From Anaerolineae bacterium (GTDB lineage Bacteria > Chloroflexota > Anaerolineae > Anaerolineales > E44-bin32), in contig DUEZ01000079.1 of assembly GCA_011174825.1 (NCBI GenBank), forward strand, positions 33,466-97,465: 64,000 nt of DNA, in the 5' to 3' direction. Under the pieces are notes generated by a model that saw nothing but the letters and a program-made list of their open reading frames with translations, was not told the DNA's origin and made no database searches. How positions within the stretch are numbered: the stretch's first letter is position 1; each line of letters begins with the position of its first letter. Shown in pieces: positions 23,326-34,792 of this stretch. Both the position numbers and the translations under genes were made by a program.

Positions 23326-24102
23326 CTATTCTGTATAAGAGGGGACTCGACCAATCGCATAAAAAGTGGGGATGAAGAGGATGCGATTTCCCGTTCGCCA
23401 CGCCTCAGCGTCGGCTCTTCGGTATTCTTCAATGGCTTCATCTGAGAGTTTGTGGCGAAGATCCGCAGCGATAGTGCGCCATTCAGAATCGAGCTCTTCA
23501 AGTGTCGGTTGCCCTGTCCACTCTCCACTGAGCACCCCAACCTGGATGTCGATCAGACCAGCCTGTGAAAAGATATCCTTAAGTTTACGTCCAATCATCG
23601 GATCGGCTCCCTGATCGATCAAGGCGCAGGTTTGAAGCTTTCCAATCTCTTCGAATTTAGGGGGATAATCTATCCTGCCACCATAGTCCGGTTCGGCAAG
23701 CGCCAAGATCCATCCGTCAACCTTCGTGATGCGTCTCATTTCGCTTATTACGAGTTCAGGGTTGGGTACCCACATCAGAAGGAAATGACAAAGCGTGGCA
23801 TCAAACGATGCGCGGGGGAAGGGGAGATTTCGTCCATCACCGGTGATGTACCTGGTCACTGAATCCAGTTGGTGTGAGAAGGCATTTGCTTGGTGATCGA
23901 TGTCTAGACCATAGGTCTTTCCTTGGAATTGGACCGCGATCTCAGAGATGATCACACCGGTGCCGGATCCTATCTCCATAATACGGTTTGCGTTTCTCAG
24001 ATTCGATAATTCATAAAGTCGTTCACGAAGCGATTGCGTCCAAGCCGCTTGAATGCGATATCTATCGTGCCACTCGGAGGGTGGATAGCTGAATTGCTCC
24101 AT
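23326..24102 (-). CDS. Class I SAM-dependent methyltransferase
   Basis: A 258-residue methyltransferase of the Methyltransf_11 type. The SAM-binding glycine loop MEIGSGTGVI is at about 42-51, the acidic residue ending strand 2 is in YGLDIDHQA, and then come GDGRNLPFPRASFDATLCHF (motif II and III) and the post-motif RRITKVDGWILALAEPDYGG. Such proteins methylate small molecules, quinones or lipids; the substrate cannot be read from sequence. It has no clear ribosome site. It stands between two repeat blocks, convergent with fhs, and is not obviously part of the radical SAM operon upstream. Confidence 0.85.
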   Translation of the reverse strand: MEQFSYPPSEWHDRYRIQAAWTQSLRERLYELSNLRNANRIMEIGSGTGVIISEIAVQFQGKTYGLDIDHQANAFSHQLDSVTRYITGDGRNLPFPRASFDATLCHFLLMWVPNPELVISEMRRITKVDGWILALAEPDYGGRIDYPPKFEEIGKLQTCALIDQGADPMIGRKLKDIFSQAGLIDIQVGVLSGEWTGQPTLEELDSEWRTIAADLRHKLSDEAIEEYRRADAEAWRTGNRILFIPTFYAIGRVPSYTE

Positions 24103-24178: not shown

Positions 24179-24379
24179 ACACTGTAGCCGCAGGCTTCAG
24201 CCTGCGTTTCTACGCGCACCCTAGAGGGTGTTTTGGAATCCAAAAGCTCTGCTTTTGGGCGCAAGCAGAGCTTGCGCACTCCAAAACTAACCTTTAGGGT
24301 GCAAATACATTGTAATTTCCAGAACCGTAGGCCTAAGCTCGGGATTCTCAGCGCACCCTAAAGGGTGCGGCTACAGTGT
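24179..24379. repeat. MITE-like element with 13-base terminal inverted repeats and nested palindromes
   Basis: The ends ACACTGTAGCCGC (24179-24191) and GCGGCTACAGTGT (24367-24379) are exact reverse complements. Between them are several short palindromes: CGCAGGCTTCAGCCTGCG, CACCCTAGAGGGTG, CCAAAAGCTCTGCTTTTGG, GCGCAAGCAGAGCTTGCGC and GCACCCTAAAGGGTGC. A further related motif follows at about 24414-24433. There is no open frame of note and no visible target-site duplication. Confidence 0.75.
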
Positions 24380-24453: not shown

Positions 24454-25611
24454 TCAACCTTGTGCCCTGGACCAAATCTCAGACCAAGGATCTCGAAGGA
24501 GATTACCCAAGACTTGATCCAGACCCTGGGTGGGAAGGACATCTCCATCCGGTTCGACATACAACCAAGCGCGCCCGGCACCCACGGGAGGAGCATCAAG
24601 TTCAAGCGCAATTGGGTTGGTGGCTGAGTAGGGTACCGGTATGTCCCAGATCAGATCAAGGTGGAGATCTGAAGCATGATCACGCGCTGCGGATAACTCA
24701 ACGAATAACTCATTTGTCGTTTCACTTGAGGAGAGTGAGACTGCTGGTACACCTATTTTGACCAAATCTTCGAGGACCTCACGTGATTTACCGAGAGGTC
24801 CCGGGGTAAGCGTTAGATGCACTGCAGTATAGATGTCTGAAGCGATCGCGTTCATGAGACCCTCCCTGCTTGAAGGATCTCCCTCTACAAGCGTGATAAG
24901 AATATGATCGAGCCCCGCCTGTGAGAGTTTCTCTAAGTAGTCCGCATCTGAAAGACGTCTACCGTCTGTAAGCAATCCGGTGACTTGACCCTGTGCCTCA
25001 GCATGTGCGATGAGATCACACAATTCCTCTCGTAGAGTTGGTTCACCACCGGTAAAGGTGACATGAGGGATTCCAGCTTCCCAAGAGGTCGTGAGGATTT
25101 TCTTCCACTCATCCCCTGAGAGCTCCCGGTCAACCCTTTTTCGAGCCAGTGGATCGAGTTCGCCTTCGGCATCGCAGCGGTAGGTTAACGCAAGATCAAG
25201 CCGGTAAGGTGCAGATGGGTGTTTTCCAAACGGCTCCGCTCGATCCATGCCCAGGAAGACCACCGGGTCGACATCGGGGATGGTTGCCAGGGTGAGGATC
25301 TGTTCCCGAAGCTCTCTCTGATCCTGCAAGGCGCGACTTCGACTAACACGGTATCGTCTCGCCACCTCTTGGGCTGCTTCTTCCTCCGAAGCACCTTCGA
25401 TGATCTGAAGTGCGTGCGCGGTCGCTGTCGGATTGAGGTGAACAACCGTGGTAGCGTTGACAATCAATACACTGGTTTCATCATTCTCGACCCTTAAATG
25501 AAGTCGATACGGGATGGGCACATCGTCTGGTGCCATCCAGTGGTACATGCCAGCTTTCAACGGTTTAGGAATTTCAAAAGGCGGTAGAAGACGGGATAGG
25601 AAAGATGACAT
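24454..25611 (-). CDS. Degenerate radical SAM paralogue (pseudo-radical SAM, PqqD-like N-terminus)
   Basis: A 385-residue paralogue of the radical SAM protein encoded just upstream. It keeps the N-terminal PqqD-like domain (VHLNPTATAHALQIIEG) and much of the barrel, including FTGGEPTLREEL, which matches FTGGESTLRKDL in the partner. The cluster motif is destroyed: where the partner reads CNANCSHC, this reads CDAEGELD, so only Cys146 remains (Gly150 and Asp153 replace the others). The SPASM cysteines are gone too, and the protein stops soon after VLGNLLRDPW, about 40 residues early. The frame is otherwise intact with a good AAGGAAGAG site, so it is likely expressed as a non-catalytic partner. 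Confidence 0.85.
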   Translation of the reverse strand: MSSFLSRLLPPFEIPKPLKAGMYHWMAPDDVPIPYRLHLRVENDETSVLIVNATTVVHLNPTATAHALQIIEGASEEEAAQEVARRYRVSRSRALQDQRELREQILTLATIPDVDPVVFLGMDRAEPFGKHPSAPYRLDLALTYRCDAEGELDPLARKRVDRELSGDEWKKILTTSWEAGIPHVTFTGGEPTLREELCDLIAHAEAQGQVTGLLTDGRRLSDADYLEKLSQAGLDHILITLVEGDPSSREGLMNAIASDIYTAVHLTLTPGPLGKSREVLEDLVKIGVPAVSLSSSETTNELFVELSAARDHASDLHLDLIWDIPVPYSATNPIALELDAPPVGAGRAWLYVEPDGDVLPTQGLDQVLGNLLRDPWSEIWSRAQG

Positions 25612-25632
25612 CGAGCTCTTCCTTTGATTAAG

Positions 25633-27006
25633 CTATATGGTCGATCCGGGTAATTGAATCTGATTAATTGGTACTTGTTGAAGTTGATGTTGGAGCGTGA
25701 GAGGGCAACCGCCTCCACATTCATTGAGCATCGCACATTGGTGGCATTCTTCAGGCACATATTGACGCTCTCGAAGCCAAATGGATAAGTCATGATTCCA
25801 GATCTCATCCCACGGATCCTGGAGGAGATTGCCGAGTGGCTCATAGAACGATTGGCATGGGATCACATCGCCGTTTGGTTCGACGCACATGTTGTATCGA
25901 GCGGCAGAGCAACCTTTGACTCCAAGCTGCATCTGAACAGGATCGAAATGGCAGTATTGTGTTGGTGTGTACCAGATTAACCGTTGTCCGTTCGAAGTTG
26001 TACGCTGACGGACAGTTTCAAGCACGGGTCCAAGATCATTTTCTTGGATACCGGTGCCAACTGTTCGACCCTTGCCGGAGTAGATTAACGCATTGCATCC
26101 GACGGTGGGGACGCCTAATTCAGCGAGAAAGTCGATGGTTTCTCCGATAGAGTGTATATTGCTAGACAGCAGGGTAGAGTTTGTCATGACGAACAATTCG
26201 CTCTCAAGACAATTTCGGATACCCTGAACGGTCTTTTCCCACGCGCCGGCTGCGCCCACCATCTGATCATGAACTTCTGGGATGTGGGATTCGATGGTGA
26301 TTTGCACATGATCAAGACCAGCACCTACCAAACGCATTAGGTAGTTGCGATCGGAAAGGCGAATTCCGTTTGTGAGAAGACCACTGATATGTCCGGTTGA
26401 TTTCGCATGAGTGATAAGATCCGGGAGGTCTTTTCGTAAAGTAGACTCGCCGCCCGTGAAACAAATGTGAGGCACGCCAATCTGCCAAAGCTTTTCGATT
26501 GCCATCCGCCATTGATCTGTGGTTATCTCAGGGTAGTTACGCGATCTTGAATTGTAACAATGGGAACAATTGGCGTTACATCGGTAGGTGAGGGCGAGAT
26601 CCATTCGGTATGGGGCGCTGGGGATTTCCGAGAATGGAGGTAACAAATCCAAATCCAGGTCGTGGATCGGGCATGCGCCATCTGGGTGAATGAGTTGTTC
26701 GATCTGAGTTCGCACGCTACGATAGTCATTCTTGGCTGTCCTGCTATTGACGTTGTATTGCTTTCGTAGCGTGTTGATGGCAGTCTTTTGTGGAACTCTT
26801 TCAAGGAATAACCAAGCCATCAGGGTCGCGGTTGGGTTGAGGTGTATGGCCCGGTTAGCATTGATCAGCAATAATCCGTGACCATCGGCTTCAACACGTA
26901 GGTGGATCTGAGACCGATCACCTTTGATTTCCTGCGTGTAGCCATATAGGCCGGGTTGTACGAGGGCTCCTTCGGTGTCCTTATTCACCTTGAAAGGATT
27001 TTTCAC
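25633..27006 (-). CDS. Radical SAM/SPASM protein with PqqD-like N-terminal domain
   Basis: A 457-residue radical SAM enzyme. A PqqD-like domain at about 10-110 could bind a substrate peptide. The radical SAM motif CNANCSHC gives Cys143, Cys147 and Cys150, followed by FTGGESTLRKDL. The C-terminal SPASM domain has CVEPNGDVIPCQSF and ECHQCAMLNECGGGCPL. I chose the GTG at 27006: GTGA overlaps the stop of the tail protein and GGAGG lies 6 bases upstream. The extra upstream codons (Trp/Arg/Cys-rich) are only the other reading frame of the neighbour's Cys-Ala tail. Enzymes of this architecture modify ribosomal peptides; the adjacent Cys-Ala tail is the obvious candidate substrate. Confidence 0.9.
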   Translation of the reverse strand: MKNPFKVNKDTEGALVQPGLYGYTQEIKGDRSQIHLRVEADGHGLLLINANRAIHLNPTATLMAWLFLERVPQKTAINTLRKQYNVNSRTAKNDYRSVRTQIEQLIHPDGACPIHDLDLDLLPPFSEIPSAPYRMDLALTYRCNANCSHCYNSRSRNYPEITTDQWRMAIEKLWQIGVPHICFTGGESTLRKDLPDLITHAKSTGHISGLLTNGIRLSDRNYLMRLVGAGLDHVQITIESHIPEVHDQMVGAAGAWEKTVQGIRNCLESELFVMTNSTLLSSNIHSIGETIDFLAELGVPTVGCNALIYSGKGRTVGTGIQENDLGPVLETVRQRTTSNGQRLIWYTPTQYCHFDPVQMQLGVKGCSAARYNMCVEPNGDVIPCQSFYEPLGNLLQDPWDEIWNHDLSIWLRERQYVPEECHQCAMLNECGGGCPLTLQHQLQQVPINQIQLPGSTI

Positions 27007-28703
27007 CGACCGCCTCCGGCGCAAGCACAGGCGCAACCAGCACATGCACAGGCACATGCGCAAACGCAACTGGAGCCACCACCACCACCGGATGACCAAC
27101 CACTTCTAGAGCGGGAGGGTGGAGGTGGAGGATTCGTAGTTTTCGTTACTCCGTTGGTGAAACCGATGACATTGGATACCATGTTCGAGGCTGCATTTTG
27201 CACCCCATTTACCATGGAGGCTGCAAATTCGGCTCCAGGCAGTGTCGGCAGGGAAACTCGAGGGCTAGGTGCACTTGGACCTCTACTCGGCGCTGTCGTT
27301 GTACGTGCAACTGGAGCGGATGATGGACTATAGCGCCCCCACCATATAGGAACGAAGACCGGTCCTGTTCGAAAGACCCTTCGAGTTCGATCATCGAAGT
27401 CACGATCGAGCATGGTCCATTCAAGACCTTCATCATAGAGTTTCGATCGTACCTCGGGTGTTTTGGCTTCTTCGACCTGTTGCCAAGCTTTCTTCATGAT
27501 CGCTTGGTAGTAATTCTTCGACTCTTTAAGGCTGAAGCCCTTCATCTTCTTTTGGACAGATTTCACCAAACTGACCATGACCTCCTGCAAAGCCCCTCTG
27601 CGTTTGCGGGGTTCTTCATCGATCATCGCCTTGAGGAAATCTTCCTCATAAGACCTCAGGCCTTCTGGCTGAGGGGTGATTCGTTCAATCTTCAATGGAT
27701 CTTCAGAGACGACCTGCGCGGCGTTCTTCTTGATCACCGAAAAGAGGATCATCGTCAGTACACGATCGAGGGGCGTTTCCAACAAGATCGCGGCTTCAAT
27801 TGCCGTTAATCCTCGCTTGATCCCATGGCCTTCAATCGCGAGCTTGGGAGGTAAGTACGCGAGCTTCCGGCTTCGATCGCTGTGAATTGCCAGGGCGATG
27901 AATCCAACGAAAGCGAGCAAGATCCCTCCGACGCAAAGGAAGCCAAAAAATGCCCCACTGAAGTCGCTCGGGCGACTGGGTTCAAAGAATTCCCCTTCAG
28001 GTACGGGTTCGCGGATCGAATCTGTGGTGACATATTTTCGAGGAAAGGATACTCCGAAGATATACTGCGTATAGGCGTTCGCTGAAGGGTTTCTCCAGGA
28101 ATAAATAATTCGCCCCTCTGAGTCGAAACCCGTTTCCGGTTCGTCTGGAAATCCTGCAGGTGCAGTGTGCCATCTTGGTTCCTCAGGTTGAACGCCTGGA
28201 GGAAGATGGAATACCACTGTTAAATCCGTTGTACCGAACACATTCTGCTTGTCGTACCAATGGGGTGAGAAGAGACCGCTGGCATAGTTCGAATCATCAT
28301 AATCATCAAATACGACACCTTCGACCCTGCCGATGGATGCTTTGAACTCACCAGTAGCGCCAGGTGGAATGGCATTGGACTCAAGTCCAAACTCGACACC
28401 AGGGCTGACAAACTCAGAGTGCGCTACGTGATCGATGGGTTGATCGTCGATCCAACCGTAGATGCTCGATAGATCGTACTCGTAATTGGGCATTCCGATG
28501 TCAATGAAATCCATTGGTGAAGCAGATCGGTCATTGGTAAATACCCTGATGTACTCTATCCGAATGCTGCCGTCTGACTCCCAAAAGACTTGGACATATT
28601 CCTCGTCCACGCTGAAGTAGTAGGTTTGAGCTCGGACAGGAAGAGCGGCTACGACAAGCAGAATGCCGAGGATGAGTAGAACCAGATATTTAAGGCGTTT
28701 CAT
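27003..28703 (-). CDS. DUF2207-like membrane protein with C-terminal Cys-Ala repeat tail
   Basis: A 566-residue protein. Signal peptide about 1-25 (LVLLILGILLVVAALPVRAQ); an extracytoplasmic beta-rich domain to about 240, DUF2207-like; one helix (FFGFLCVGGILLAFVGFIAL); then a long cytoplasmic region with a possible winged-helix segment (GLTAIEAAILLETPLDRVL) and a Lys-rich helix. The end is low complexity: Pro and Ser/Arg, then GWSSGGGGGSS, then C-V-(CA)4-G-(CA)3-GGG-R, with eight cysteines. With one membrane pass after a cleaved signal, the tail would face the cytoplasm. I chose the ATG at 28703 (GGAG six bases upstream) over one four codons earlier. Its stop overlaps the radical SAM start. 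Confidence 0.85.
   Translation of the reverse strand: MKRLKYLVLLILGILLVVAALPVRAQTYYFSVDEEYVQVFWESDGSIRIEYIRVFTNDRSASPMDFIDIGMPNYEYDLSSIYGWIDDQPIDHVAHSEFVSPGVEFGLESNAIPPGATGEFKASIGRVEGVVFDDYDDSNYASGLFSPHWYDKQNVFGTTDLTVVFHLPPGVQPEEPRWHTAPAGFPDEPETGFDSEGRIIYSWRNPSANAYTQYIFGVSFPRKYVTTDSIREPVPEGEFFEPSRPSDFSGAFFGFLCVGGILLAFVGFIALAIHSDRSRKLAYLPPKLAIEGHGIKRGLTAIEAAILLETPLDRVLTMILFSVIKKNAAQVVSEDPLKIERITPQPEGLRSYEEDFLKAMIDEEPRKRRGALQEVMVSLVKSVQKKMKGFSLKESKNYYQAIMKKAWQQVEEAKTPEVRSKLYDEGLEWTMLDRDFDDRTRRVFRTGPVFVPIWWGRYSPSSAPVARTTTAPSRGPSAPSPRVSLPTLPGAEFAASMVNGVQNAASNMVSNVIGFTNGVTKTTNPPPPPSRSRSGWSSGGGGGSSCVCACACACAGCACACAGGGR
27006..27068 (-). other. Coding stretch for the Cys-Ala repeat tail
   Basis: These 21 codons encode C-V-(CA)4-G-(CA)3-GGG-R directly before the stop. 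The dinucleotide-like GCATGC/GCACAG pattern makes the DNA itself repetitive, and the radical SAM gene's ribosome site (GGAGG) is built into the final Gly codons. Confidence 0.9.
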
Positions 28704-28751
28704 ACCATACTCCATGTTTGCGTGTGATGGAGAGAGATTGAACTCATAGCT

Positions 28752-29111
28752 TTACCATTTTGGCTCTTCAGTTAATTGATACGATGTATTGCAATACGGA
28801 CAGGAGACGACGGGGGCTCCAGCGACCATCTTGACATTGTCCGGTGAGAGGGAGCCACCGCAATTTCGGCAGGACAAGGTTTCGAGATCAATATCGCCGG
28901 ATAGCTCGATTCTTTGCACGAGTTCGGCAGCTTCTCGTTTGGCTTGCCGTCCTGCGAGCCAGATCAATCCAAAACCGATGCCTACGCTGATGACCCCGAT
29001 GATCAACCAGGAGGTTTGACCTGTGGGAGAAAAAGTTGCGTAGATGAACAACACACCAAAGAAGATCAGAATTGCTGCAGCAATATACGAGATTATACGT
29101 ACAGCGGACAT
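28752..29111 (-). CDS. Small two-helix membrane protein with zinc-ribbon tail
   Basis: A 119-residue protein. Two membrane helices (about 5-27 and 34-53) are followed by a charged helix and a zinc-ribbon with CRNCGG at about 83-88 and CPYCNT near 105-110. No catalytic motif is visible. It is first in the minus-strand run, 49 bases upstream of the tail protein, and may belong to the same operon as a membrane or recruitment partner. That link is by position only. Confidence 0.75.
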   Translation of the reverse strand: MSAVRIISYIAAAILIFFGVLFIYATFSPTGQTSWLIIGVISVGIGFGLIWLAGRQAKREAAELVQRIELSGDIDLETLSCRNCGGSLSPDNVKMVAGAPVVSCPYCNTSYQLTEEPKW

Positions 29112-29683: not shown

Positions 29684-30385
29684 ATGAATGAGGATAAAAT
29701 CCTGGCCTTGATACCGGCCTGGAACGAAGAGGCATTTATTCGACCGGTAATCGAGGCGGCGCGTGCGCACCTGCCCGTTCTCGTTGTCGACGATGGTTCG
29801 CAAGATCGAACCCCTGAGCTTGCTGCCTCAGTTGGAGCGGAGGTCGTTCGGCATGAGGAGAACAAGGGGAAGGGCCAAGCGCTAATCACGGGCTTCAAGT
29901 GGACTTTGGCCCAAGGATTCGACGCTGTCGTTACTTTAGATGCGGACGGTCAGCATGATCCAGCAGAAATTCCCATATTTATATCTGCTTATCAGAATAA
30001 CGCCGGTGAGCTTATCATCGGGAGAAGAGACTTTCGACAGATGCCATTTCCTAACCGTTATGCAAATCCAATCGGCTCGTGGTTACTCTCTTTAGCACTC
30101 AAACAACGTATTTACGACAACCAATGTGGGTATCGTTGTCACACTCGCAAATTGTTAGAATCCCTCGATCTTAAAACAACTGGATTTGAACTAGAAGTCG
30201 AGGTGGTCATGCAAACGGTGTGCCTTGAGATGACGATCGGATGGGTGCCTATTCGAACCATTTATGGTACCGGGAAGATAAGCTACTTCCATCCTCTCCA
30301 CGACACGCTTGGTTTCTTGAAAATGGTTTGGTACGCTTATCAATATCGGCGCAGGTTTCTCAGACGGTATCAAGGTTCATCCTGA
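29684..30385 (+). CDS. Glycosyltransferase family 2 (dolichol-phosphate-mannose-synthase-like)
   Basis: A 233-residue GT-A fold enzyme. ALIPAWNEE at the N-terminus and VVDDGSQDRTPELA bind the nucleotide sugar, the metal-binding acidic motif is in LDADGQHDP, and GYRCHTRKLLE follows. There are no clear membrane helices, so it is cytoplasmic or peripheral. Relatives transfer sugars to polyprenyl phosphate or to lipids. The next gene, a lipid acyltransferase 57 bases on, suggests a shared role in cell-envelope lipids, but acceptor and donor cannot be deduced. The start lacks a clear ribosome site. Confidence 0.88.
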   Translation: MNEDKILALIPAWNEEAFIRPVIEAARAHLPVLVVDDGSQDRTPELAASVGAEVVRHEENKGKGQALITGFKWTLAQGFDAVVTLDADGQHDPAEIPIFISAYQNNAGELIIGRRDFRQMPFPNRYANPIGSWLLSLALKQRIYDNQCGYRCHTRKLLESLDLKTTGFELEVEVVMQTVCLEMTIGWVPIRTIYGTGKISYFHPLHDTLGFLKMVWYAYQYRRRFLRRYQGSS

Positions 30386-30442
30386 TTGAGATTTTAAGAA
30401 CTCAAGGTAAAAAGGATGTGTCCGAGCTATTAAAGGAGTGAT

Positions 30443-31354
30443 ATGGATCTCATATCTTTCATCAACAGTAGCCTGGGACCGAGGCTTGGTCTTTTCATCG
30501 CGCGATATATCAGCCGGAAGCAAGCTTATCGGCTCGCAGACTGGATGACGGGACTTGTTGTAAAGCGAGAAGATTCATGGTTGATCAAGGGAGTTCGTGC
30601 TAATCAATCTGTCGTGCATGGGATACCATTCGAATCCCCAGAGCTTGATCAGGCGGTATATGAGGTGATCCGCAACACTGCGCGTGGTTATGCTGATTGG
30701 TACCGTGCGGTTGCCGGTGGACCAGAGGTTTTAGAGAGGAGCCTCGGTATTGCTGATGAACTCAAAGAGCGAGTGTTCCAATCGGTTCGCGAAAAGCATG
30801 GTGTCTTATTCGTTGGGCCACATATGAGCAGTTTTAATGTCATGTTGCTTGCGATCGGTGTGATGGGACATCCAGTGCAAGCCCTCTCGTATCCAGATGT
30901 AAGGGGTTCTTACATTGTCGACAATGAAGTGCGGAAGAAATTCGGGGTCAATATTACACCCATATCATTCCAGGCTCTGCGTGAAGCGATCCACCGGTTG
31001 CGAGATTACGGTTTTGTGATGACCGGCGTTGATAGGCCTGACGTCGGCGGGGAACCACTGACCTTCTTCAACCGCAAGGTAGTCCTCCCTATCGGTCATG
31101 CACGATTGGCGATTCGGACGGGGGCTAATGTTCTCGTTGGCAGAGTTGAAGATGAGGGGAATGGCTACTATCGGGGGCATTGCGAAGAATTCATCGAGCC
31201 GGAATTGACAGGGGATGAAGACGAAGATGTGCTGTCACTCGCACAACGAATCATCAAGGTGTGCGAAAATCTGATCCGAGCGAGTCCATCAGAATGGTTG
31301 ATGTTCCACACAGTTTGGCCCGATGCCTTGCCGTCTCAAAGTGAACCACAATAA
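30443..31354 (+). CDS. LpxL/PatA-like lipid acyltransferase
   Basis: A 303-residue protein of the lysophospholipid acyltransferase (HtrB/LpxL) family. The catalytic block is VLFVGPHMSSFNVMLLAIG at about 124-142, where the histidine is retained but the usual acidic partner of HX4D/E is Asn (HMSSFN). Further motifs: DRPDVGGEPLTFFNRKVVLP and PSEWLMFHTVWP near the end. It has an AAAGGAG site before the ATG. Members acylate lipid A, phosphatidylinositol mannosides or similar glycolipids. In a Chloroflexota-type cell without lipid A, a glycolipid acyltransferase working with the neighbouring glycosyltransferase is more likely. Confidence 0.8.
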   Translation: MDLISFINSSLGPRLGLFIARYISRKQAYRLADWMTGLVVKREDSWLIKGVRANQSVVHGIPFESPELDQAVYEVIRNTARGYADWYRAVAGGPEVLERSLGIADELKERVFQSVREKHGVLFVGPHMSSFNVMLLAIGVMGHPVQALSYPDVRGSYIVDNEVRKKFGVNITPISFQALREAIHRLRDYGFVMTGVDRPDVGGEPLTFFNRKVVLPIGHARLAIRTGANVLVGRVEDEGNGYYRGHCEEFIEPELTGDEDEDVLSLAQRIIKVCENLIRASPSEWLMFHTVWPDALPSQSEPQ

Positions 31355-33406
<2,052 letters not shown>

Positions 33407-33601
33407 AACTAAGGACAAATCTGAACGCACAAAGCATGAGTCGACATCATGGTTGAAAGTTGTCACCACAGGAGGAACATGCTTTTGTGCTTGTTTCGTT
33501 TTCTCTGATCATTAGGCGAAGGTGGAGATTTTTTCCCTCATCACTTCACACAAGGTTGGGGGGATGACTTAGGCAGCACAGGGACCAACATTGGAGAACC
33601 G

Positions 33602-34792
33602 ATGCGTCAGATTAGACTGAAGTCGGGAAGGGAACGATCGGTTCTCAGGCGCCATCCTTGGATCTTCTCTGGGGCCATTGAGGAGATTGAAGGGGAACCG
33701 GGGATCGGCGAAACGGTGGAGGTCTTTTCTCATGATCATCAATGGCTAGCACGAGGGGCATACTCACCAAACTCGCAAATCCGAGCTCGAATCTGGACCT
33801 GGGATCCGGATGAACCCATTGATGCTGACTTCTTCCGACGTCGCTTAGATCGCTCCATAGATGCCCGCCGTCAACTTGCTCGTACATTGGAGGTGACCGC
33901 TTATCGAGAGGTACACGCAGAATCTGACGGTCTTCCTGGGGTGATCCTCGATCGCTACAACGATAACTTCATTCTGCAACTACTAAGCGCTGGCGCAGAG
34001 CATTGGCGGGAGGTGATCGTTGCGTACCTCAAGCGAAGGAAAGATTGTGCAGGGATCTACGAGCGATCCGATGTAGACGTTCGTCAACTGGAAGGATTGC
34101 CCTCTCGACGGGGCTATTTATCAGGGGAAGGATCGAACGAGGCCTTGATCATCTCTGAGTATAAGCTGCGATACAAGGTTGATATCCATCAGGGTCAGAA
34201 GACAGGCTTCTACCTCGATCAACGGGAGAATCGGCGGCTGCTTCGGGAATGGATTCAAGGAGGAGAAGTCCTAGACTGTTTTGCGTACACGGGTGGGTTT
34301 ACCGTATCTGCATTAGCAGCAGGGGCGGACGCAGTTCTCTCCATCGACACATCTTCCTCTGCATTGGCGTTGGCATCTGAGAACGTTATTCTGAATGATC
34401 TTCCTCATGACCGCTGTGAATGGATTGAGTCTGATGTTTTCGCGGAATTACGGGCGCTCCGAGACCAGGGGCGGACTTTTGATGCGGTGATATTAGATCC
34501 GCCACGTTTTGCTCGAAGAGCATCCCATGTCCAGCGTGCCTCACGGGGCTACAAAGACATCAACCTTCTTGCGTTCAAGTTGCTTCGCCCAGGAGGCCTG
34601 TTGTTCACGTATTCCTGTTCAGGCGCCGTGGATATGGGTTTGTTTCAGAAGATCGTCGCCGGTGCGGCGTTGGATGCGAGGGTGGAGGCTGCGATCGTTG
34701 CTTGGCTCGGTCAGCCCTCCGATCACCCAGTTGCGTTGAGCTTTCCAGAGGGCAGGTACCTAAAGGGATTGGTATGTCAGGTTGCGTCCTAG
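33602..34792 (+). CDS. rlmI: RlmI-like 23S rRNA m5C methyltransferase
   Basis: A 396-residue SAM-dependent rRNA methyltransferase. An N-terminal PUA domain (about 1-75) is followed by a linker and a Rossmann methyltransferase. Motifs: KTGFYLDQRENRR, then the SAM loop VLDCFAYTGGFTVSALAAGA at about 222-241, and the catalytic DAVILDPPRFARR (motif IV). The nearby SYSCSGAV supplies the cysteine of m5C enzymes. RlmI methylates C1962 of 23S rRNA in E. coli; target identity here is by family. GGAG lies 6 bases upstream of the ATG. Its 3' end has a decayed copy 1.5 kb downstream. Confidence 0.9.
   Translation: MRQIRLKSGRERSVLRRHPWIFSGAIEEIEGEPGIGETVEVFSHDHQWLARGAYSPNSQIRARIWTWDPDEPIDADFFRRRLDRSIDARRQLARTLEVTAYREVHAESDGLPGVILDRYNDNFILQLLSAGAEHWREVIVAYLKRRKDCAGIYERSDVDVRQLEGLPSRRGYLSGEGSNEALIISEYKLRYKVDIHQGQKTGFYLDQRENRRLLREWIQGGEVLDCFAYTGGFTVSALAAGADAVLSIDTSSSALALASENVILNDLPHDRCEWIESDVFAELRALRDQGRTFDAVILDPPRFARRASHVQRASRGYKDINLLAFKLLRPGGLLFTYSCSGAVDMGLFQKIVAGAALDARVEAAIVAWLGQPSDHPVALSFPEGRYLKGLVCQVAS

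Follow-up and report, generated by a model that had tools for sequence, protein, structure and literature searches.

What becomes of a large membrane protein that ends in a run of alternating cysteines and alanines, when its stop codon overlaps the start of a gene for an enzyme of a peptide-modifying type? This question is raised by a five-gene locus on the minus strand of a 64,000-nt stretch of DNA (the window, to which positions refer unless a locus is named) from an Anaerolineae bacterium of the Chloroflexota (assembly GCA_011174825.1, contig DUEZ01000079.1, positions 33,466 to 97,465). The genes are read in the order D-A-B-C, then E. A (27003..28715) encodes the 570-aa protein with the Cys-Ala (CA) tail, B (25633..27006) a 457-aa radical S-adenosylmethionine (SAM)/SPASM enzyme whose GTG start at 27006 overlaps the TGA stop of A (GTGA), and C (24454..25611) a paralogue of B without the cluster cysteines. 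On balance, we lean towards a reading in which A is a membrane protein whose tail, predicted to be cytoplasmic, is the likely substrate of B, and in which B would make Cys-Ala thioethers on a tail that stays uncleaved. A preliminary description of the interval 24454..29111 had reported the coordinates and reading frames of D, A, B, and C, the overlap of A with B, the formula of the tail, and a paralogue lacking cluster cysteines, all of which agree with the sequence. The gene E, which lies outside that interval, the spread of the system beyond the Chloroflexota, and the existence of another tail type, to which a separate enzyme subfamily belongs, were absent from it.

The tail of protein A

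The window's A ends in SSCVCACACACAGCACACAGGGR, i.e., C-V-(CA)4-G-(CA)3-GGGR, and this tail (residues 550-570, CVCACACACAGCACACAGGGR, 27006..27068) is predicted to be disordered. A whole-protein search with A scored 7999 candidates and gave 4628 relatives, the best 120 of which were examined. The tail is present in 118 of these 120; the other two (P0015 and P0023) end before it and are named "partial" in their source. All 118 tails finish with (CA)3-GGGR at the extreme C terminus, and ahead of the central glycine stand five CA units in 63, four in 54, and a CV-starting block like that of the window in one. The linker preceding the tail varies freely among the best 120 relatives.

The same ending is found in proteins chosen without reference to it. 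From genomes selected without the tail pattern, we collected 17 A proteins beside B and 20 more via an A profile, and the CA tail with GGGR was present in 37/37 proteins whose C terminus was seen. The 17 come from 20 regions chosen by B; in the remaining three, A was cut by the contig end (one region) or only a short A-like protein was present (two regions, whose genomes also hold a full A with CA tail and GGGR, counted among the 20). Some tails depart in detail: that of G013, whose A is split over two frames, is reduced to CACACAGGGR, and that of G082 has its glycine shifted (CACACAGCACACACAGGGR), as do those of loci L233 and L235. Complete homologues not chosen by pattern are about 500 to 780 aa long and carry the tail at the extreme C terminus. 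The short precursor with a cleaved leader that defines a classical ribosomally synthesized and posttranslationally modified peptide (RiPP) is thus not what is seen here, as the tail ends a large protein.

For a wider survey, a codon pattern for CACAGCACACAGGGR followed by a stop was run on one genome per species. Among the pattern loci listed, 117/119 have a tail open reading frame (ORF) of at least 50 aa, and 115 of those 117 match A by BLAST, the other two (L094 and L156) being short pieces at stretch ends. The last 15 residues are written in 143 distinct 45-nt codings across 166 partly overlapping loci, a figure in which only the third-base variety is informative, the amino acids having been preset by the search in most of those loci. 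The body of A, in turn, has a mean majority-residue identity of 50% over 467 columns, with no two adjacent invariant columns (26 homologues). Since the tail occurs in pattern-independent A proteins whose bodies have diverged, we reject an origin by chance or by composition. When the last 49 residues of A were used as the query against the window's own genome, only A matched well, the next match having an E value of 0.28. In locus L169 (4266-8000), two A-like genes stand in tandem, the second one cut by the locus end.

Sequence and structure prediction together give A a signal-peptide-like start, a β domain (residues 30-227), one membrane helix (about residues 252-287), a helical part, and a disordered Gly/Ser linker ahead of the tail. 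A signal peptide followed by a single membrane helix would leave the β domain outside and the tail in the cytoplasm, a predicted topology consistent with the location given in the preliminary description. The same description called A DUF2207-like, of which a loose likeness in layout stands: DUF2207 membrane proteins also have a signal peptide, a β domain, a membrane helix, and a helical domain. However, the window's A does not reach that family, showing no match to the DUF2207 Pfam profiles at an E value of ≤1, and DUF2207_C (PF20990) gave one weak match among 26 A homologues. No DUF2207 protein with a CA tail is known to us.

Pairing of A with B in bacteria and Asgard archaea

The codon pattern matched on at least 119 contigs. 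By title, 88 of the matches listed belong to Chloroflexota (mostly named Anaerolineae, Anaerolineales, or Chloroflexi) and 31 to other phyla, namely, 10 to Fermentibacterota and kin, 6 to Asgard archaea (Heimdall-, Hodar-, Sigyn-, and Lokiarchaeota), 3 each to Aminicenantes and Coatesbacteria, 2 each to Acidobacteriota and Edwardsbacteria, and one each to Zixibacteria, Cloacimonadota, UBP2, "Chrysiogenales," and Geohydrothermomicrobium. Single phylum placements may be wrong, since most of the genomes are metagenome assembled; the presence in Asgard archaea has the support of a survey covering 148 genomes from the phylum to which L065 belongs, and named isolates are among the carriers (Ornatilinea apprima, L063; Bellilinea caldifistulae, L116; Levilinea saccharolytica, L121; and L158).

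The locus counts given here refer to the pattern loci listed, a locus being testable when it has enough flanking DNA. B lies downstream of A, on the same strand and within 1 kb, in 102/114 testable loci. Seventeen loci lack an adjacent B in the records: 12 without one, 3 with too little downstream DNA, and 2 lacking a 50-aa tail ORF. The genomes behind them hold a B of at least 534 bits in 16/17 cases (19/20 with three Asgard controls), in some of them just past the stretch or, as a B-prime form, close by. Two Asgard genomes, those behind L072 (Sigynarchaeota) and L111 (Lokiarchaeota), carry A and B on separate contigs. Genome-wide counts tell the same story, with both tail families pooled and the first two sets sharing some genomes. 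Both genes, A only, B only, and neither were found in 10/0/0/141 of 151 Chloroflexota genomes (A at E ≤ 1e-15, B at E ≤ 1e-100), 58/2/2/39 of 101 genomes of the window's order (A at E ≤ 1e-6, B at ≥316 bits), and 48/3/6/91 of the 148 Asgard genomes (A at E ≤ 1e-15, B at E ≤ 1e-60). Fisher tests that treat related genomes as independent give 8e-16, 4e-23, and 2e-28, respectively. Moreover, a tree of A made with the tail left out correlates with that of B, with an r of 0.83 over 60 pairs, the maximum of 1000 permutations being 0.16, and with an r of 0.79 within 28 Chloroflexota. The preliminary description had proposed a co-occurrence search in other genomes and had named tail proteins consistently lacking a radical SAM gene as the finding that would speak against it; instead, a genome with either gene nearly always has the other, even on different contigs.

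The Asgard search also yielded proteins that resemble A in their inner part only (about 60 to 118 bits), most complete ones measuring 700 to 815 aa. The tails of this second family read like CVSHDACHSACVSHDACHSACHSACHSACVCHSACHSACHSACVSGG(F/Y)R (CHSA tails), and two Chloroflexota relatives of 572 and 581 aa end in CHSACHSACHSACVSSV and CHSACHDACHSACVSDF. Like the CA tails, they are made up of repeated blocks, in most cases interrupted by a break, and are closed by a short cap at the C terminus. They go with a B subfamily of 344 to 376 bits, and CA tails go with complete B proteins of about 520 to 710 bits. One Chloroflexota genome (G277) has both systems on different contigs, with a CA tail and a 684-bit B on one side and a CHSA tail and a 355-bit B on the other, and no CHSA tail paired with a CA-type B was found in the loci examined. 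No B was present in the family-2 stretches L260, L261, and L262. One family-2 A scores 21.6 bits against PF09972 (cutoff, 24.4), and 2/20 of the matches of another carry that domain. The family-2 loci (L201, L202, L238-L240, and L253-L271) are from Asgard archaea and two Chloroflexota; in L238-L240, the family-2 B has an Ala_racemase_N/D-ser_dehydrat-like neighbor (Pfam check for L240), and in L239 and L240, genes for proteins of 108 to 110 aa and 131 to 144 aa precede A.

D (28752..29111), 36 bp upstream of A, encodes a 119-aa membrane protein that has two hydrophobic stretches and finishes in a zinc-ribbon-like CXXC...CXXC part (YQLTEEPKW), for which Pfam and NCBIfam profiles gave weak matches only. 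A D homologue is encoded on the strand of A in 80/85 testable loci, so that the small zinc-ribbon protein earlier suggested as a possible fourth part is indeed a regular neighbor. C, 21 bp after B, has a counterpart downstream in 43/63 loci with room for it and in 0/6 Asgard loci, and it is therefore not needed everywhere. E (23326..24102), 351 bp after C, encodes a class I SAM-dependent methyltransferase (Methyltransf_11; PF08241, 63 bits). Counted at any place and on any strand of the same locus, an E homologue occurs in 52/66 testable loci, including four Asgard loci (L064, L065, L096, and L131) in which it directly follows B; its scores in Fermentibacterota and Acidobacteriota are low (51 to 92 bits), making the assignment weaker there. 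Between C and E (24179-24379) lie a 43-nt direct repeat and imperfect inverted repeats whose arms measure 28 nt and 25 nt. Upstream, at 29684-34792, lie genes that by eye are glycosyltransferase-like, acyltransferase-like, NAD-dependent DNA ligase, and methyltransferase-like, and these neighbors recur as local synteny in 9 to 23 of 160 partly overlapping, mostly 8-kb stretches.

Enzyme B and the fate of the tail

B has the cluster motifs expected of a radical SAM/SPASM enzyme, matching PF04055 with 85.5 bits and PF13186 with 41.4 bits (cutoff, 21.5). Its radical SAM cluster motif CX3CX2C (C143, C147, and C150; 26557..26580) and its SPASM cysteines CX2CX5CX3C (C421-C434; 25705..25746) are invariant in the B alignment; in 112 homologues selected by profile score and length, the former is present in 112/112 and the latter, by pattern, in 108/112. 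C homologues have lost both (0/64 for each) and have kept the HLR-type motif of the N-terminal domain in 63/64 and the GGE motif in 51/64, and the window's C likewise retains the putative PqqD-like domain and TGGEPT. Apparent internal stops in C were dismissed in the case checked (G081), where the alignment had overrun C's own stop. In some families of the window's order, a B-like enzyme has a C-terminal cysteine patch of its own, such as GGGGCSGCSGSCG (L037:9762-11264, L042:8066-9748, L050:9239-10858, L053:8918-10651, and L235:634-2232). In L037, L042, L050, and L053, this enzyme lies near a 290- to 342-aa A-like protein that has neither the β domain nor the tail and ends in TFYG, TYYG, or TYFG.

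The N terminus of B (residues 19-106; 26689..26952) is predicted to form strands followed by three helices, as in the PqqD-like RiPP recognition element (RRE). The preliminary description had recognized a PqqD-like domain here. By the Pfam profile (cutoff, 23.4), B falls short with 15.6 bits, as does C with 20.9; the assignment is supported by the predicted fold, in which this domain has the expected strand-helix order (predicted local distance difference test [pLDDT] score of the model, 87), and by two family-2 B proteins that exceed the cutoff (30.9 and 27.6 bits). In addition, a TfuB1 chain matches profile positions 49-111 of B (E value, 5.8e-5). Searched against structure chains, the B profile matches SkfB, PqqE, and SuiB, and the predicted fold matches SkfB (1.5e-17), SuiB with peptide (6.2e-16), 5why, a thioether-forming sactipeptide enzyme (2.7e-14), and PqqE (9.2e-14), SkfB being the best match by both routes. 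B was rejected as a member of the NCBIfam families SkfB (90.9/300 bits), AlbA (63.5/850), and PqqE (132.3/381), staying below the cutoff of each, although the last is its best name in NCBIfam.

That B acts on the tail of A is, in our judgment, very probable, because a conserved terminal tail is nearly always accompanied by an enzyme with a probable PqqD-like domain, whose subfamily shifts with the tail type. The core of the preliminary description was this same proposal, and the near-constant pairing argues for it at the level of genomes. B may bind its substrate through the PqqD-like domain, as in SuiB- and PqqE-type systems, and would then form thioether bonds between the cysteines of the tail and alanines close by. 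Were (CA)3-G-(CA)3 to fold into a hairpin at its central glycine, every alanine would come to stand opposite a cysteine. C could hold the substrate or pair with B, and whether it is such a holder or partner in the Chloroflexota is for us an even call. E would add methyl groups, perhaps to the modified tail, its free thiols, or the terminal carboxylate, a role that we hold slightly short of even.

Which product B would leave on the tail is a harder question. We tentatively favor Cys-to-Ala alpha-carbon thioethers, as in SkfB-type sactipeptides, since the enzymes that B matches best are crosslink formers and the residue that recurs regularly in both tails is cysteine. A modification of another kind, such as epimerization (D/L) of alternate alanines or oxidation or other change of the cysteines, with E methylating the product, would suit the strict alternation of Cys and Ala and the presence of the methyltransferase beside B in 52/66 loci, and the epimerase EpeE is itself among the fold matches of B (8ai1_A; E value, 9.1e-10). 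The fold of B therefore does not decide its reaction. Nevertheless, SkfB, SuiB, PqqE, and 5why/5wgg, the best matches, are crosslink makers (as we take SkfB and PqqE to be, 5why and the SuiB-peptide complex being so by their structure titles), and what unites the CA and CHSA tails is regular cysteine spacing more than alanine, so that we regard chemistry without crosslinks as unlikely.

Less probable still is a tail that serves unmodified as a metal or redox ligand (a thiolate cluster), with B and E acting on another target in the same pathway, for instance D or a small molecule. A group of six to eight closely spaced cysteines would suit Cu(I), Zn, or Fe-S, the CHSA tails add histidines, and D is zinc-ribbon-like; yet B has a probable PqqD-like domain, A and B are kept together even on different contigs, and tail type tracks B subfamily, whereas a plain ligand needs neither a matching enzyme nor a conserved GGGR. 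We consider it highly improbable that the tail is merely a hydrophobic membrane anchor or sorting signal. The hydropathy of the 19-residue CA segment (1.87) does come near that of a membrane helix, but an anchor requires neither alternation nor cysteine, A already has a membrane helix, and the corresponding CHSA tail, with its many His and Ser residues, is not hydrophobic.

Several observations weigh against the thioether reading or narrow it. The chemistry of the tail is something we infer by analogy, and the hairpin is only a suggestion, since some Asgard tails and the short G013 tail lack the central glycine. The codon pattern preset the last 15 residues, making their invariance in the pattern loci and in the A alignment true by construction. 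In lokiarchaeal A proteins, hydrophobic stretches are more numerous, and it is less certain on which side of the membrane the tail lies. The pairing has exceptions: G108 has A, near a contig end, and a C-like match (192 bits) and no B; and B occurs without a detected A in the 6/148 Asgard genomes counted above, in two of which (L251 and L252) the stretch around B holds E and no A. Shared descent inflates all co-occurrence figures and the tree correlation, to which vertical descent contributes. E was not seen in 14/66 loci, nor did its profile find a match in 19 family-2 loci, and it is therefore not essential. Finally, the model leaves the cysteine patch of some B-prime enzymes unexplained.

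Relation to known systems

The closest relatives of B by structure are SkfB and other sactipeptide maturases, including 5why/5wgg (presumably CteB), with which it shares a radical SAM core, SPASM clusters, probably a peptide-binding N-terminal domain, and, if our reading holds, a cysteine-rich peptide substrate. Sactipeptide maturases act on short precursors with leader peptides; in contrast, the substrate of B would be the last 20 or so residues of a 570-aa membrane protein. PqqE with PqqD, and SuiB, are SPASM enzymes with a PqqD-type peptide-binding module, which B probably has as well, but B remains far below the PqqE family cutoff (381 bits). QhpD and anSME are radical SAM enzymes that act on whole proteins, and anSME structures are among the structure matches of B; here too the target would be a full-size protein, but the substrates are others and carry no repetitive C-terminal tail.

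A parallel from outside the radical SAM enzymes is offered by TIGR04222 membrane proteins, subsets of which, with cysteine-bearing C termini, have been proposed to be modified by MNIO enzymes (PMC12452194). As described there, these resemble A and B in combining a large membrane protein and a Gly/Ser-rich, cysteine-bearing C terminus, often beside a peptide-modifying enzyme, but that enzyme is a DUF692/MNIO oxidase and not a radical SAM protein (PMC12452194). The TIGR04222 ends are described as diverse and predicted to be periplasmic (PMC12452194), unlike the uniform, predicted cytoplasmic CA tail of A, which has no match in NCBIfam at an E value of ≤1 and hence none to TIGR04222. We found no published description of Cys-Ala tails with a radical SAM gene in a literature search that reached few subscription journals.

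The chemistry class of the enzyme is known; what is likely to be novel is radical SAM/SPASM modification of an unusual, apparently uncleaved, and unusually conserved ribosomal substrate. Small natural products are the setting in which radical SAM peptide enzymes are mainly known. Because B probably acts on the C terminus of a large membrane protein, and this terminus is nearly identical from Anaerolineae to Asgard archaea, the modification would serve the cell itself. We tentatively suggest that the mature protein acts at the membrane as a sensor or buffer of metal or redox state. Taken as a whole, the locus probably belongs to a system, common to bacteria and Asgard archaea, for the modification of a retained cysteine tail by a dedicated radical SAM enzyme. 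There would be at least two tail codes, each served by an enzyme subfamily of its own; the CA branch would add a methyltransferase, and the Chloroflexota an inactive enzyme copy as a partner. It offers a defined substrate, an enzyme, and candidate partners, and its two parallel tail codes lend themselves to testing enzyme specificity. If this reading is true, anaerobic bacteria and Asgard archaea would have in common a protein modification spanning two domains of life, and the tail would be not a released peptide but a built-in, crosslinked cofactor of a membrane receptor-like protein.

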